Below are positions 10,867 through 64,000 of a DNA stretch of 64,000 nt, piece by piece (the first letter of the stretch is position 1; each line of letters opens with the position of its first letter). Origin of the DNA: Sedimenticola sp. GTDB lineage: Bacteria; Pseudomonadota; Gammaproteobacteria; Chromatiales; Chromatiaceae. Below the pieces are notes generated by a model. It saw nothing but the letters and a program-made list of their open reading frames with translations. It was not told the DNA's origin and ran no database searches. The stretch lies in NCBI GenBank assembly GCA_002869585.1, contig PKUO01000002.1, forward strand, positions 1 to 64,000, in the 5' to 3' direction. The translations under genes were made by a program, and so were the position numbers.

Positions 10867-10920
10867 TACGCGTTTTCCGCGCGTGTCGTGGATGAGTTTT
10901 ATTTTTTCAGGAGTTACCAG

Positions 10921-11277
10921 ATGGCCCGTATTGCAGGCGTCAATATTCCAGATCGAAAGCACGCCGTCATTGCGTTGACCTCGATCTATGGGGTTGGTCG
11001 TACCCGAGCCGCCAACATCTGTAAGGCTGCAGGCATCGCAGAGACTGCAAAGATTATCGATCTTAGCGAAGGCGAAGTTGAGTCACTGCGTACAGAAGTT
11101 GCGAAGTTCACTGTAGAAGGTGATCTGCGGCGTGAAATATCCATGAACATCAAACGTCTCATGGATCTTGGTTGCAATCGGGGTATCCGTCATCGTCGTG
11201 GCTTGCCGCTACGTGGTCAACGGACCCGTACCAATGCGCGCACACGCAAGGGCCCACGTCGCCCAATTAAGAGATAG
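10921..11277 (+). CDS. rpsM: 30S ribosomal protein S13
   Basis: 118 residues from the ATG at 10921 ([20 protein letters not shown]), equal to E. coli S13. An upstream in-frame ATG at 10888 would add eleven residues ([11 protein letters not shown]) not found in the family. CAGGAG at 10908-10913 is the likely ribosome binding site. The C-terminal [20 protein letters not shown] block contacts P-site tRNA. First gene of the alpha operon. Confidence 0.98.
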
Positions 11278-58642: not shown

Positions 58643-58963
58643 TTGGATAATCAGTTTTAAATCAGCGCGTTGTAAGGTTCTGATTAAGAAATAATCTGGT
58701 CGGGATAAGCACTTCTGATTTGACCGTTGGGCCCCGGCTCTGGTATATATGCACGGCTTTTTTTGCCCAGGTGTGGGCGGTTATGCCTCAAAAAATGTGG
58801 ATTGGGCGGCCGATTTTCGGATTTTTGGACTCGCAGGATCAGGCATCTACTGGTTATTCGTGCTGAGACCCGGCCTGACGCGCATTTCTCGAATTCTGCT
58901 CGGGGAAAGAGCAGGATCGTTTTGCAGGTGAATTTTTTTCAGTCAATTTCAGTAGGTTTGACC
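58643..58963. other. 321-bp intergenic region, cytochrome c4 leader
   Basis: Holds the cytochrome promoter (58720-58749) and an apparently untranslated leader of about 200 bases. Small frames inside (for example from 58749) have no ribosome binding site or family resemblance and are rejected. Confidence 0.5.
58720..58749 (+). promoter_or_regulatory. Candidate cytochrome c4 promoter
   Basis: TTGACC (58720-58725), 18-base spacer, TATATA (58744-58749). About 205 bases before the cytochrome ATG. Confidence 0.5.
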
Positions 58964-59569
58964 ATGAACAAGTGGCTTGTTTCAGTTTCCATAGTTTTGG
59001 CACTCACAGTAAACGGCGTTCAGGCGGCAGGAGATGCGGAGGCAGGTAAGACCAAGTCTGCCACTTGTCTGGCCTGCCACGGTCCCGACGGCAACAGTCC
59101 CAATCCAATCTGGCCCAAGCTGGCCGGTCAGCACCCCGCCTACATCATCAAGCAATTGACCGATTTCAAGGCGGGTGCGCGCAAGAATGACCTGATGAGC
59201 CCGATGGCCACACCGCTGACCGACCAGGACGTTCTGGATCTTGCCGCCTATTTCAGCAGCCAGAGCCAATCCACAGGCACCGCCGCTGCAGATCAGGTGG
59301 AACTGGGCGAGCAGATGTACCGCGCCGGCAACACCACCACCGGTGTCGCGGCCTGTATGGCCTGCCACGGCCCCACCGGAATCGGCAATCCAGCGGCCAA
59401 CTTCCCGCGTATCAGCGGTCAGCATGCCGCTTATCTGGAAAAGGCGCTGAAGGACTTCCGCTCCGGTGAGCGCAATAACGATACCGCCAAGATGATGCAG
59501 GGTGTCGCAGCCCAAATGACCGATGCGGAAATCGCCGCTGTCGCGCAGTATGTGCAGGGTCTGCACTAG
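58964..59569 (+). CDS. Dihaem cytochrome c4
   Basis: 201 residues from the ATG at 58964; the frame is open upstream, but the signal peptide (MNKWLVSVSIVLALTVNGVQ, cleavage after AA-type site) fixes the start. Two c-type haem sites, CLACH (about 35-39) and CMACH (about 130-134), lie in two related halves; each half has the methionine ligand region (SPMATPLTDQDVLDLAAYF; MMQGVAAQMTDAEIAAVAQY). Cytochrome c4 carries electrons in the periplasm to terminal oxidases. A terminator follows. Confidence 0.93.
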   Translation: MNKWLVSVSIVLALTVNGVQAAGDAEAGKTKSATCLACHGPDGNSPNPIWPKLAGQHPAYIIKQLTDFKAGARKNDLMSPMATPLTDQDVLDLAAYFSSQSQSTGTAAADQVELGEQMYRAGNTTTGVAACMACHGPTGIGNPAANFPRISGQHAAYLEKALKDFRSGERNNDTAKMMQGVAAQMTDAEIAAVAQYVQGLH

Positions 59570-60469: not shown

Positions 60470-61240
60470 GTGATAAATCGTGCTCATCCTGACAGATTGA
60501 GGTTGCTGAGTTATAACATCCAGACCGGGGTGGATACCCAGCATTACAGTCAATATCTGACGCATAGCTGGAAGCACGTGCTGCCCAACCGGGCGCGTTT
60601 ACAGAATCTGAATCAAATCGCCGACCTGATCGGCCAGTATGACATTGTCGGGCTGCAGGAGGTGGACTCCGGCAGTCTGCGCAGTGGTTTCGTCGATCAG
60701 ACCGAGTACCTCGCCCACCGGGCGGGGTTTCCCCACTGGTTCAAGCAGATCAATCGCCGTATCGGCAATATCGCCCAGCACAGTAATGGTGTGCTCAGCC
60801 GCTTCAAACCTTCGGATGTGCAGGAGTATCGCCTGCCGGGACTGCGCGGTCGCGGGGTGATAGTCTGTCAGTACGGGGGTGATGACGGGCTGACAGTGTG
60901 TATTATGCATCTCGCCCTGAGCAAGCGTGCGCGCCTGCGCCAGATTTCGTTTGTCAGCCAGCTGGTGAAATCCATGCCACATGTGGTGCTGATGGGTGAT
61001 CTCAACTGTGGTTGTGAATCGAGCGAGATGAAATACCTGATGGACAACATCAACCTCCAGGAGCCATCCTGCGAAAAGAGCACCTTCCCCAGTTGGCGGC
61101 CGATGCGCAAGATCGACCATATCCTGGTGTCCGAGTCGCTGCATATTGAAAATGCCCGGGTGCTGGACTATCCCTTCTCGGATCACCTGCCGATTGGGAT
61201 AGATATCATCATCCCTGACAACCTCAACCTGGCAGCCTAG
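60470..61240 (+). CDS. Endonuclease/exonuclease/phosphatase family protein
   Basis: 256 residues starting at GTG 60470; GGGG at 60462-60465 precedes it. Family motifs: LRLLSYNIQTG, GLQEVDSG, the catalytic MHLALSK region, VVLMGDLNCG, and the terminal FSDHLPI. These are the metal and catalytic residues of the DNase I-like fold. No signal peptide, so cytoplasmic. Substrate unknown: it could be nucleic acid, nucleotide or phospholipid. Stop (TAG) and the next ATG are directly adjacent. Confidence 0.88.
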   Translation: MINRAHPDRLRLLSYNIQTGVDTQHYSQYLTHSWKHVLPNRARLQNLNQIADLIGQYDIVGLQEVDSGSLRSGFVDQTEYLAHRAGFPHWFKQINRRIGNIAQHSNGVLSRFKPSDVQEYRLPGLRGRGVIVCQYGGDDGLTVCIMHLALSKRARLRQISFVSQLVKSMPHVVLMGDLNCGCESSEMKYLMDNINLQEPSCEKSTFPSWRPMRKIDHILVSESLHIENARVLDYPFSDHLPIGIDIIIPDNLNLAA

Positions 61241-62794
61241 ATGAGTAGCAGCGGCGACAACGACCGGGAATGGCAGGAACGATACCAGTCGCTGCAGCTG
61301 CAACGTGAAACGGAACTGGCCGCCCAGCAGAGTACCGAGAAACTGCTCTGCCGCACGATTATCCGCCTGACCCTTGCTGCCAGCGGTTTCAACCCGCAAC
61401 TCGATCCCCATCTCAACAAGCTCCGGGATGGCGTAAAGAAGGGTGTGCAGGCCTCCCAGCTGGAGCGCCTCGAGCAGTTGTCCAACGCCATTCTGCATCC
61501 CGACGAACCCCGCGCAACCAGTCAGTCCGGCGCTGCCGATCCCTTCTCCCGGCTGCTCTCCAGAATCTCCCTGAGTGCCAGCCATAACCAGGCCCTGCAA
61601 CGGCTGGTGAAGGCGTGTCTGGCACATCCTGAGGGGGTGTCTGATCAACAGCTTGATCAGCTTCTGGAGCTGATCTCGCAACCCGAGGCGGCCACAAAGG
61701 GCAAGGGCTTGCTGGGGCGATTGTTTGCCAGACAGGGGACCTCCTCTGATGCAGGCCACGAACCCAATGAACGACTGCTGACCCTGCTGGAGAGACTGAA
61801 TTGGCCGGAGCAGATGGGCCAGGACATCGCGCATCTAAAGGACCGCCTGTCGGGCGCTAAGCAGCAGGATGTCTGGGGGGAGGTGCTCGAGGATCTCATG
61901 GATCTGATCTCGGCCATGCTGCGGGATATCCAGCAGGAGATTTATCACACAGAGGGATTTCTGGTTGAGCTGACCGATCGGCTGAAGGAGATCGACAGGC
62001 ATATCCAGGATGGTCAGGATTGTCGTCGCGAATCCCTGGAGAGCGTCAAGCGCTTTGACCAGCAGGTGAATGATGACATTGGCAGCATCCATGCGTCGGT
62101 GAGCGGGGCCAGCAGCATCCAGCAACTCAGAAGCGATGTGGAGACACACCTGAACGTGTTGAAGCATCACATGGACAGCCACATCGCCGAGGAGATGCAA
62201 CTCCACGAGCAGGCCGAACATATCGAGCTGCAGCTACGCGACCGCCTCCGGCATGTCGAGCTGGAATCAGAAGAGCTGCGCAAAAAGGTGGTGGATGCCC
62301 ATCAGAAGGCGACCACCGACAGCGTGACCGGCCTGCCCAATCGTCTCGCCTATGATCAACGACTGCACCAGGAGTATGTCCGCTGGAAGCGCTTCGGCCA
62401 ACCGGTCAGCCTGTTGGTCTGGGATATCGACGATTTCAAGGGGATCAACGATCGCTTTGGTCATCGTTCCGGGGACAAGGCGCTGGCGGTCATCGGCAAC
62501 CTGCTCAAGCAGCGTTTGCGGGAGACGGATTTTGTCGCCCGCTATGGCGGCGAGGAGTTCGTCATGCTGCATATCGGCGCCAGCCTGAATGAGTCGAAAC
62601 AACTCGCCGAATCAATTCGCCAGGCCATCGGCAAAAGCGGATTTCACAGCAACGGCAACAAGGTGCAGGTGACCATCTCCTGCGGCCTGACCGAGTTCAG
62701 GGAGGGGGACACGGTGGAGTCCATCTTTGAACGTGCAGACCAGGCGATGTACCAGGCCAAAGGCAGTGGCAAGAACTGCTGCGCCACCCTGTGA
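61241..62794 (+). CDS. Cytoplasmic diguanylate cyclase with long N-terminal domain
   Basis: 517 residues. The first 330 are soluble and mostly helical with coiled-coil stretches (about 1-35 and 215-345), ending in a linker into the GGDEF domain (about 350-515). The active-site motif is GGEEF (about 435-439), preceded by RETD at the inhibitory-site position, so both synthesis and product inhibition are expected. No membrane segment or known sensor domain. Its N-terminal region resembles that of other uncharacterised diguanylate cyclases of gammaproteobacteria. It ends seven bases before the convergent zinc-ribbon gene's downstream stop. Confidence 0.9.
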   Translation: MSSSGDNDREWQERYQSLQLQRETELAAQQSTEKLLCRTIIRLTLAASGFNPQLDPHLNKLRDGVKKGVQASQLERLEQLSNAILHPDEPRATSQSGAADPFSRLLSRISLSASHNQALQRLVKACLAHPEGVSDQQLDQLLELISQPEAATKGKGLLGRLFARQGTSSDAGHEPNERLLTLLERLNWPEQMGQDIAHLKDRLSGAKQQDVWGEVLEDLMDLISAMLRDIQQEIYHTEGFLVELTDRLKEIDRHIQDGQDCRRESLESVKRFDQQVNDDIGSIHASVSGASSIQQLRSDVETHLNVLKHHMDSHIAEEMQLHEQAEHIELQLRDRLRHVELESEELRKKVVDAHQKATTDSVTGLPNRLAYDQRLHQEYVRWKRFGQPVSLLVWDIDDFKGINDRFGHRSGDKALAVIGNLLKQRLRETDFVARYGGEEFVMLHIGASLNESKQLAESIRQAIGKSGFHSNGNKVQVTISCGLTEFREGDTVESIFERADQAMYQAKGSGKNCCATL

Positions 62795-62801
62795 GGCAGC
62801 G

Positions 62802-63350
62802 TCACTCCTGAAGGTAAAAATAGTCCCAGCGGCAACCCAGAGCTTCGAGCGCGCTGATCAGCTCAGCTGAGGGAACGGCCTCGCCCGGAAACACCCCCCA
62901 GATCTAGATGAACAGTCGCCCAGTGCCCGCACTTTGGCGCCAGTTCAGGGTGGGCATGGATAGATTCGCTCCGCATCCCTCACAATTAAAACTGTCTTGT
63001 TCGGCCAGTTCCCTCCAGTGAACGTAGCGATGACGGCACACCGGACATCTGGGTGGGGTGGTGTTGGGACCAGAGCGGAAGAGCGGTTCTGCAAAGGGAC
63101 CCCTGATGCGAATGTGGCTGAACTCGCTATCGTCCGGGTGTTCCGGTTCAAGGCGTACGAAGGGTGAACAGCCCAGGAAGGTGATCAGTTGCAGGAAACG
63201 GTCACCTGCGAGATAAGCCGCCTGCCCGGCTACATCGGTGGCGCGGGTTTCTCTGGTCAGACCGATGGCGCTGAGCCTCTCCACAACCTGCCCGGTAGGG
63301 GGTAAGGCGGCTTCGGGCGATGGGGTGAGAATCAGTTTTGAGTGGGGCAT
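62802..63350 (-). pseudogene. Zinc-ribbon protein interrupted by an in-frame amber codon
   Basis: From the ATG at 63350 a frame of 148 codons runs to TAG (62906-62904). The same frame then stays open for 33 more codons to TGA at 62802 and reads IWGVFPGEAVPSAELISALE, then a segment ending CRWDYFYLQE, which looks like genuine protein. The product has CPVCRHR and CEGCGANL, a four-cysteine zinc ribbon (about 104-130). The join (GRLFI, stop, IWGVFPG) suggests a single GAG-to-TAG change. It is either a recent nonsense mutation, a sequencing error, or read-through. Divergent from the ZnuA-like gene, with a Zur-like site between them. Confidence 0.75.
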
Positions 63351-63431
63351 GGGGCAGGGTCGGTTTCTGTTCCCAGCAATCCTAGCAGATATGATGTGAT
63401 CCGGTGTGCATGGATGCTTGCATTTGAATGA

Positions 63432-63450
63432 TATGTGATAACATAACATT
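63432..63450. promoter_or_regulatory. Zur-box-like operator
   Basis: TATGTGATAACATAACATT matches the gammaproteobacterial Zur palindrome AATGTTATAATATAACATT at 16 of 19 positions (consensus recalled, not searched). It lies in the spacer of a possible promoter TTGAAT (63424-63429)-N17-CATTAT (63447-63452), 33 bases before the ZnuA-like ATG, so Zur-zinc would block transcription. Confidence 0.6.
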
Positions 63451-63483: not shown

Positions 63484-64000
63484 ATGTACCCCTGGTCAAG
63501 ACCTGTAACGCTTTTGCTGATGCTGTTTTGTATGCAGGGCCTCTCTTTTGCCCAAGTGGCGGAAAAGCCCACGGTGTATGTCAGTATCCTGCCACAGAAA
63601 TTTCTCGTGGATCGTATTGGCGGCGGCAATTTCCAGGTCAGTGTGATGGTGGGTCCGGGGGAGAGTCCGGCGACCTACGAGCTGAAGCCGCGCCAGATGG
63701 CGGGGCTGAAAACCGCACTGCTCTATTACCGGGTAGGCGTGCACTTCGAGGATGTCTGGCTGCCGAAGGTCCTCTCGATCAATCCGCAGCTGCCGCTGCT
63801 GGATGCCCGTGAAGGGTTGGAGTTGCGGGAGATGGAACCTGCTGGCGGGCACCACCACGACTATGACGCTACGCATCATCATGGCAAGGGCGCGGATCCC
63901 CATATCTGGATGAGCCCGCGACTGTACAGCGAGATGGCCAGAAACCTGGCCAGGCGGCTGGGTGAGCTCGATCCGCAACATGCCGATCTCTACCGTGACA
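63484..64000 (+). CDS. ZnuA-like zinc ABC transporter binding protein (partial)
   Basis: 172 codons from the ATG at 63484; the 3' end lies beyond the window. A signal peptide (about 1-23) precedes VYVSILPQKFLVDRIGGG, the start of the cluster A-I metal-binding fold. A His-rich loop (HHHDYDATHHH, about 122-132) precedes DPHIWMSP with the second metal-ligand histidine. The first ligand, the His of the SPHxY motif in E. coli ZnuA, is replaced by Ala (GPGESPATYEL). The loop and operator support zinc, but the altered site leaves the metal open. Together with unseen ZnuBC it would import zinc. Confidence 0.85.
   Translation, partial: MYPWSRPVTLLLMLFCMQGLSFAQVAEKPTVYVSILPQKFLVDRIGGGNFQVSVMVGPGESPATYELKPRQMAGLKTALLYYRVGVHFEDVWLPKVLSINPQLPLLDAREGLELREMEPAGGHHHDYDATHHHGKGADPHIWMSPRLYSEMARNLARRLGELDPQHADLYRD

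Follow-up and report, generated by a model that had tools for sequence, protein, structure and literature searches.

The window, a stretch of 64,000 nucleotides which forms part of contig C85 in a draft genome of 3.93 Mb (109 contigs), carries on its reverse strand a conserved zinc-ribbon gene whose reading frame is interrupted by a TAG codon. This TAG is very probably an isolated nonsense substitution, real or miscalled, and one of a wider load of stops in the same assembly. This assignment follows from the homologues, which continue past the site, and from the stop itself, which is common to no relative. An earlier note on this DNA had left three options for the codon, i.e., a fresh pseudogene, a sequence error, and a read-through or recoded codon. 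The first two, i.e., a newly arisen nonsense mutation and an erroneous base, are both supported, while read-through or recoding is not, release factor 1 (RF1) being intact, a CUA tRNA being absent and other genes being hit by TAA and TGA as well. Recoding would have been surprising, and the evidence does not support it. What is unusual is the load of single-base stops, which includes one in the sole NAD synthetase gene, and claims of gene loss based on this genome consequently need to be checked against the reads.

The Interrupted Gene

The full conserved extent of the gene is 62802–63350 (reverse strand), homologues spanning its whole length. The frame comprises 148 codons from the ATG at 63350, the TAG at 62906–62904 (codon 149, in the context ATC TAG ATC), the 33 codons IWGVFPGEAVPSAELISALEALGCRWDYFYLQE and a TGA at 62804–62802, which gives 182 residues before the TGA if the TAG is read as a residue. 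The start at 63350 fits the N-terminus of the homologues (M-x-x-G-x-L-x-L). Direct reading of the window confirmed the open frame of 33 codons beyond the TAG, as previously reported, together with the spacing to the convergent diguanylate cyclase ending at 62794, with 7 bases between the two genes if the long form is taken and 109 if the gene ends at the TAG. Premature termination costs the protein its last 34 residues and leaves a product of 148 residues. The zinc ribbon CxxC...CxxC (C102, C105, C123 and C126; 62973–63047, reverse strand), whose cysteines are invariant in a 27-sequence alignment, lies upstream of the stop.

The gene is single-copy in its genome. No second copy of the TAG-bearing sequence was retrieved by a single-protein query of genome contigs or by a search of viral contigs with one exact pattern. 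In the contig collection, the single-protein query retrieved nothing and it was an alignment query that retrieved the loci. The in-frame TAG sits in a CTAG tetranucleotide, which is about tenfold rarer in the whole window than expected from base composition (24 found versus 240 expected).

Conservation Through the Stop

Homologues of the zinc-ribbon gene were found in 32 of the 55 genomes searched (31 plus the window's own), mostly of the same family, and in the 31 other genomes no homologue carries an internal stop. The family end FPGEAVP...WxYFYxQ(D/E) was aligned past the TAG column in 29 sequences and in 26 loci of a second collection, which partly overlaps the first; three or four homologues have a slightly different end or a contig break. 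The homologues hence run on through the tail, and none terminates at the TAG position with unrelated sequence behind it. At the TAG column itself, the expectation of a glutamate held in part. Glu is the commonest residue (10–11 of 26–29), with Lys, Gln, Gly, Thr and further residues in other homologues. The proposed change of GAG to TAG is thus plausible, the congener having GAA at this position, but it is unproven since the column is variable.

The 33 conserved sense codons located 3' of the TAG (62805–62903, reverse strand; IWGVFPGEAVP...WDYFYLQE) encode a tail sharing 24 of 33 residues with the protein of the nearest relative. Their nucleotide differences from this relative are distributed 9/3/18 over codon positions 1, 2 and 3; this pattern is one of purifying selection, and the open tail is more than a product of chance. 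With a mean identity of 0.49, compared to 0.27–0.47 for the other thirds of the protein, the tail is conserved at least as well as the rest, and it contains the invariant or nearly invariant residues P155, E157, A158, P160, L168, W175 and Y179. In these respects, the gene resembles a recent pseudogene created by nonsense mutation: a single in-frame stop lies in a frame which is otherwise intact and constrained, and the homologues in relatives are intact. It differs from such a case in that several conserved genes of the same assembly are affected, including the sole nadE, and in that frameshifts are absent.

In a Thiodiazotropha genome (L125), the same locus has lost the zinc-ribbon gene except for its final 37 codons (L125:6001–6111), an independent loss by deletion.

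Protein Architecture and the Short Product

A confident AlphaFold model, computed for the protein of the window together with 26 homologues (pLDDT 93.1, pTM 0.88), shows N-terminal and C-terminal strand-helix-strand units flanking the four-cysteine ribbon, an arrangement corresponding to a split alpha/beta domain. In this model, the TAG falls in strand 147–151, which is followed by a strand, a helix and a strand extending to residue 181, so that the 33 codons provide the second half of the domain. Since the stop lies inside strand 147–151, translation ending after codon 148 would remove the half of the domain which completes the frame around the ribbon, and we infer from the model that the 148-residue product should not fold and should be inactive.

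It could be argued that it is the 148-residue form which functions in this species, the tail being a leftover, as the whole zinc ribbon is encoded upstream of the TAG. Such a reading appears extremely unlikely. The tail carries the invariant or nearly invariant positions listed above, it supplies a helix as well as strands to the domain in the model, and no relative terminates at this position. Furthermore, the tail is still marked by selection, so any changed use of the protein would have to be very recent.

Weak structural overlays (VIA-align, best Z 4.9) indicated that both ends of the protein jointly match ferredoxin-like or HMA-like arrangements; at Z ≤ 4.9, the ferredoxin-like reading applies to the arrangement only. 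Residues 97–138 could be superimposed, again weakly, on rubredoxin (rmsd 2.1 over 39 residues, Z 3.5). Foldseek searches with the model gave no confident match in the PDB. In Pfam and NCBIfam, every match was under its curated cut-off and confined to the ribbon region, leaving the flanking alpha/beta domain without a sequence match. The four-cysteine ribbon is a feature that the protein shares with FmdB (TIGR02605) and other CxxC-CxxC ribbons, but its score against TIGR02605 is 15.2 bits for a curated cut-off of 31.3, which places it outside this family. The zinc-ribbon gene belongs to a conserved, lineage-specific family of Chromatiales-like bacteria which is unnamed in the family libraries.

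Recoding and Read-Through

Recoding of UAG, as known for pyrrolysine and for code 15 phages (PMC9523058), is likewise accompanied by an in-frame TAG followed by an open and conserved tail. In contrast to these systems, the genome has an intact RF1 gene (prfA, 543.8 bits for a cut-off of 423), and its best match to PylS reaches 30.4 bits for a curated cut-off of 178, comparable matches being present in most control genomes. None of the 44 tRNA matches in the genome has the anticodon CTA expected of a CUA tRNA, with the caveat that an atypical tRNA could evade the model; one match is clipped by the end of contig C38 and does not read CTA. In addition, stops of the TAA and TGA types interrupt other genes. 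Pyrrolysine or suppressor-tRNA recoding was rejected on the basis of the intact RF1, the absent CUA tRNA and the PylS score far under its cut-off.

A less specific possibility is that the TAG is passed at some rate, by leaky or regulated read-through or by an undetected suppressor, and that the full-length protein is made. Consistent with this view, the tail of the zinc-ribbon protein is intact and constrained, many residues are tolerated at the TAG site as well as at the corresponding site in znuC (see below), and a cell could hardly live with its sole nadE interrupted if the base were correct and the stop never passed. However, in addition to the intact RF1 and to the lack of a detectable CUA tRNA and of a curated PylS, no single suppressor covers genes broken by TAG, TAA and TGA. 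TAG also terminates 217 of the 1048 predicted genes in the surveyed sample and is the true stop of the neighbouring genes 58727–59569 and 60470–61240. Finally, the congener has a Glu codon at the site and no relative has a TAG. Passage of this stop is therefore regarded as very unlikely, and a nonsense substitution or a wrong base as the better explanation.

Other Interrupted Genes in the Assembly

In order to place this TAG in context, 1.2 Mb of the genome (about 30%) was surveyed and compared with 0.9 Mb of a complete relative (G004) and with other relatives. At least nine conserved genes are interrupted in these 1.2 Mb, all by single-base changes leading to TAG, TAA or TGA. The closest lies in znuC, just past the window, where a TAG in the context AAG TAG ATC (C85:64919–64921; L083:10920–10922) is followed by the conserved last 61 codons of the gene. 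This stop precedes the conserved segment VVSHDIGF, which contains the H-loop histidine of ABC ATPases, and ten relatives read on with R, K, Q, G or L at the same position.

Alignment with homologues further revealed interruptions in pilB (TAG at C85:261185 and TGA at C85:261116; L173), nadE (TAA at C85:270984; L173), a glyoxalase gene (TAG at C53:139018; L183), thiC (TAG at C36:41596; L217) and an acetolactate synthase gene (TAG at C53:230881; L188). A DNA ligase-like gene (TAG at C36:102281; L220) was identified both by homologous alignment and by a Pfam domain running across the stop. A Pfam domain across the stop also identified genes coding for a TonB-dependent receptor (TAA at C32:43808; L226), a TauE-type transporter (TAA at C53:16952; L177) and MltG (TAG at C66:24202; L192). 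A histidine kinase gene and a SixA-like phosphatase gene, each with a TAG, are probably interrupted too. No other copy of nadE was found in the genome; Glu is the residue of its PDB relatives at the stop position, and the E. coli-type acetolactate synthase likewise has Glu at the stop of that gene. The stops look slightly clustered, the two of the zinc locus being separated by 2 kb and the two of pilB by 69 bases, a point against the preferred explanation.

The controls gave a different picture: the 79.9k aligned residues of G004 contained no real internal stop, nor did the 72.5k of the other relatives, where the stops listed either preceded a start codon or belonged to antisense frames. Frameshift pairs were found in none of the comparison sets. 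Most entries of a first stop listing were discarded as lying in antisense or shadow frames, and a scan of codon statistics for post-stop tails returned mostly gene pairs, candidates being kept only if a domain bridges the stop. Similarly, stops noted in other ABC ATPases (C53:236904, C66:64587 and C66:65287) proved on reading to be ordinary gene boundaries.

Spectrum of the Base Changes

The former residue can be read for seven of the stops. It is Glu in the zinc-ribbon gene (by majority), at one stop of pilB, in nadE, in thiC and in the acetolactate synthase and glyoxalase genes, and Gly at the other stop of pilB. The stop types match GAG>TAG, GAA>TAA and GGA>TGA, all of which fit G>T changes. 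Given the codons of this genome, G>T accounts for 24.6% of the one-step routes to a stop, and under equal rates seven G>T changes out of seven would arise in about 5 of 100,000 cases, a figure to be used as a guide only, the set having been assembled during the search. The former codon is unreadable for znuC and for the ligase, MltG and TonB receptor genes.

G>T changes are the mark of oxidised guanine, be it of cellular origin or formed in the library, and ex vivo G>T mismatches have been described with strand asymmetry (PMC12390751). The readable stops resemble this 8-oxoguanine sequencing artefact (PMC12390751) in fitting G>T and in being substitutions only. They differ from it in one respect, as artefacts of this kind usually affect few of the reads and only seldom appear in a consensus. 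Two sources can thus be envisaged: a real and recent burst of G:C to T:A mutations (mutator) or relaxed selection on the one hand, and consensus errors, due for instance to oxidised guanines in the library, on the other. As to this cause, which we infer from the pattern of changes, real mutations and consensus errors appear about equally probable. The interruption of the sole nadE tips the balance towards wrong bases, while the contiguity of the assembly (a contig of 323 kb) and its completeness of 100 argue against low coverage and tip it towards real bases. That the stops are both real and tolerated, owing to recent mutator activity of the G:C to T:A type or to translation passing all three stops often enough for nadE and the other genes, is considered unlikely. 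Should the bases prove real, the strain would be a candidate mutator.

Two further observations speak against the preferred explanation. The mutY and mutM genes appear intact, and radical missense changes showed no G:C to T:A excess (5 versus 6 in the reverse direction), a comparison which is underpowered with an expectation of only about 4. At codon positions 1 and 2, G>T plus C>A changes numbered 220 versus 160 in reverse, and transitions 240 versus 230. This missense excess was not relied on, because the GC contents of the genomes differ (0.546 versus 0.585) and because the excess lies in conservative changes. Private changes at invariant columns amounted to 14 in the locus of the window, several being G:C to T:A, and to none in 405 UvrA columns, numbers too small to carry weight.

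The Zinc Locus

The zinc-ribbon gene is divergent from a znuA-like zinc-binding protein gene (63484–64000, forward strand), which continues past the window and codes for 297 residues in C85. Downstream of znuA are found znuC, znuB and a gene of the Fur/Zur family. Between the divergent genes lies a Zur-like palindrome (63432–63450) with 3 mismatches to AATGTTATANTATAACATT. No other site of the window has 3 mismatches or fewer, an overlapping register at 63427 having 4. Across 37 non-redundant loci, the window's included, znuA is divergent from the zinc-ribbon gene in 11; a Zur-like box (at most 5 mismatches) is present in 10 of these 11 and in none of the 26 others, a few of which are ended by contig breaks. 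The hint of a role in zinc homeostasis, previously drawn from the ribbon and from the adjacent site, is hence favoured by gene order and by the Zur-like box beside znuA, the role itself being a prediction. On these genomic grounds, a zinc-related role is likely, and this unnamed family, often encoded across a Zur-like box from znuA, would be a candidate for a zinc-starvation protein, putatively Zur-regulated.

On the other side, the GGDEF diguanylate cyclase gene (61241–62794, forward strand; TIGR00254, E 1.9e-45) is the convergent neighbour, an arrangement which recurs in many relatives. An endonuclease-like gene (60470–61240) shows a steadier linkage to the zinc-ribbon gene than znuA. Elsewhere in the window, an alpha operon ribosome binding site (RF00140) is located at 10869–10953, in keeping with its position in an operon of ribosomal proteins.
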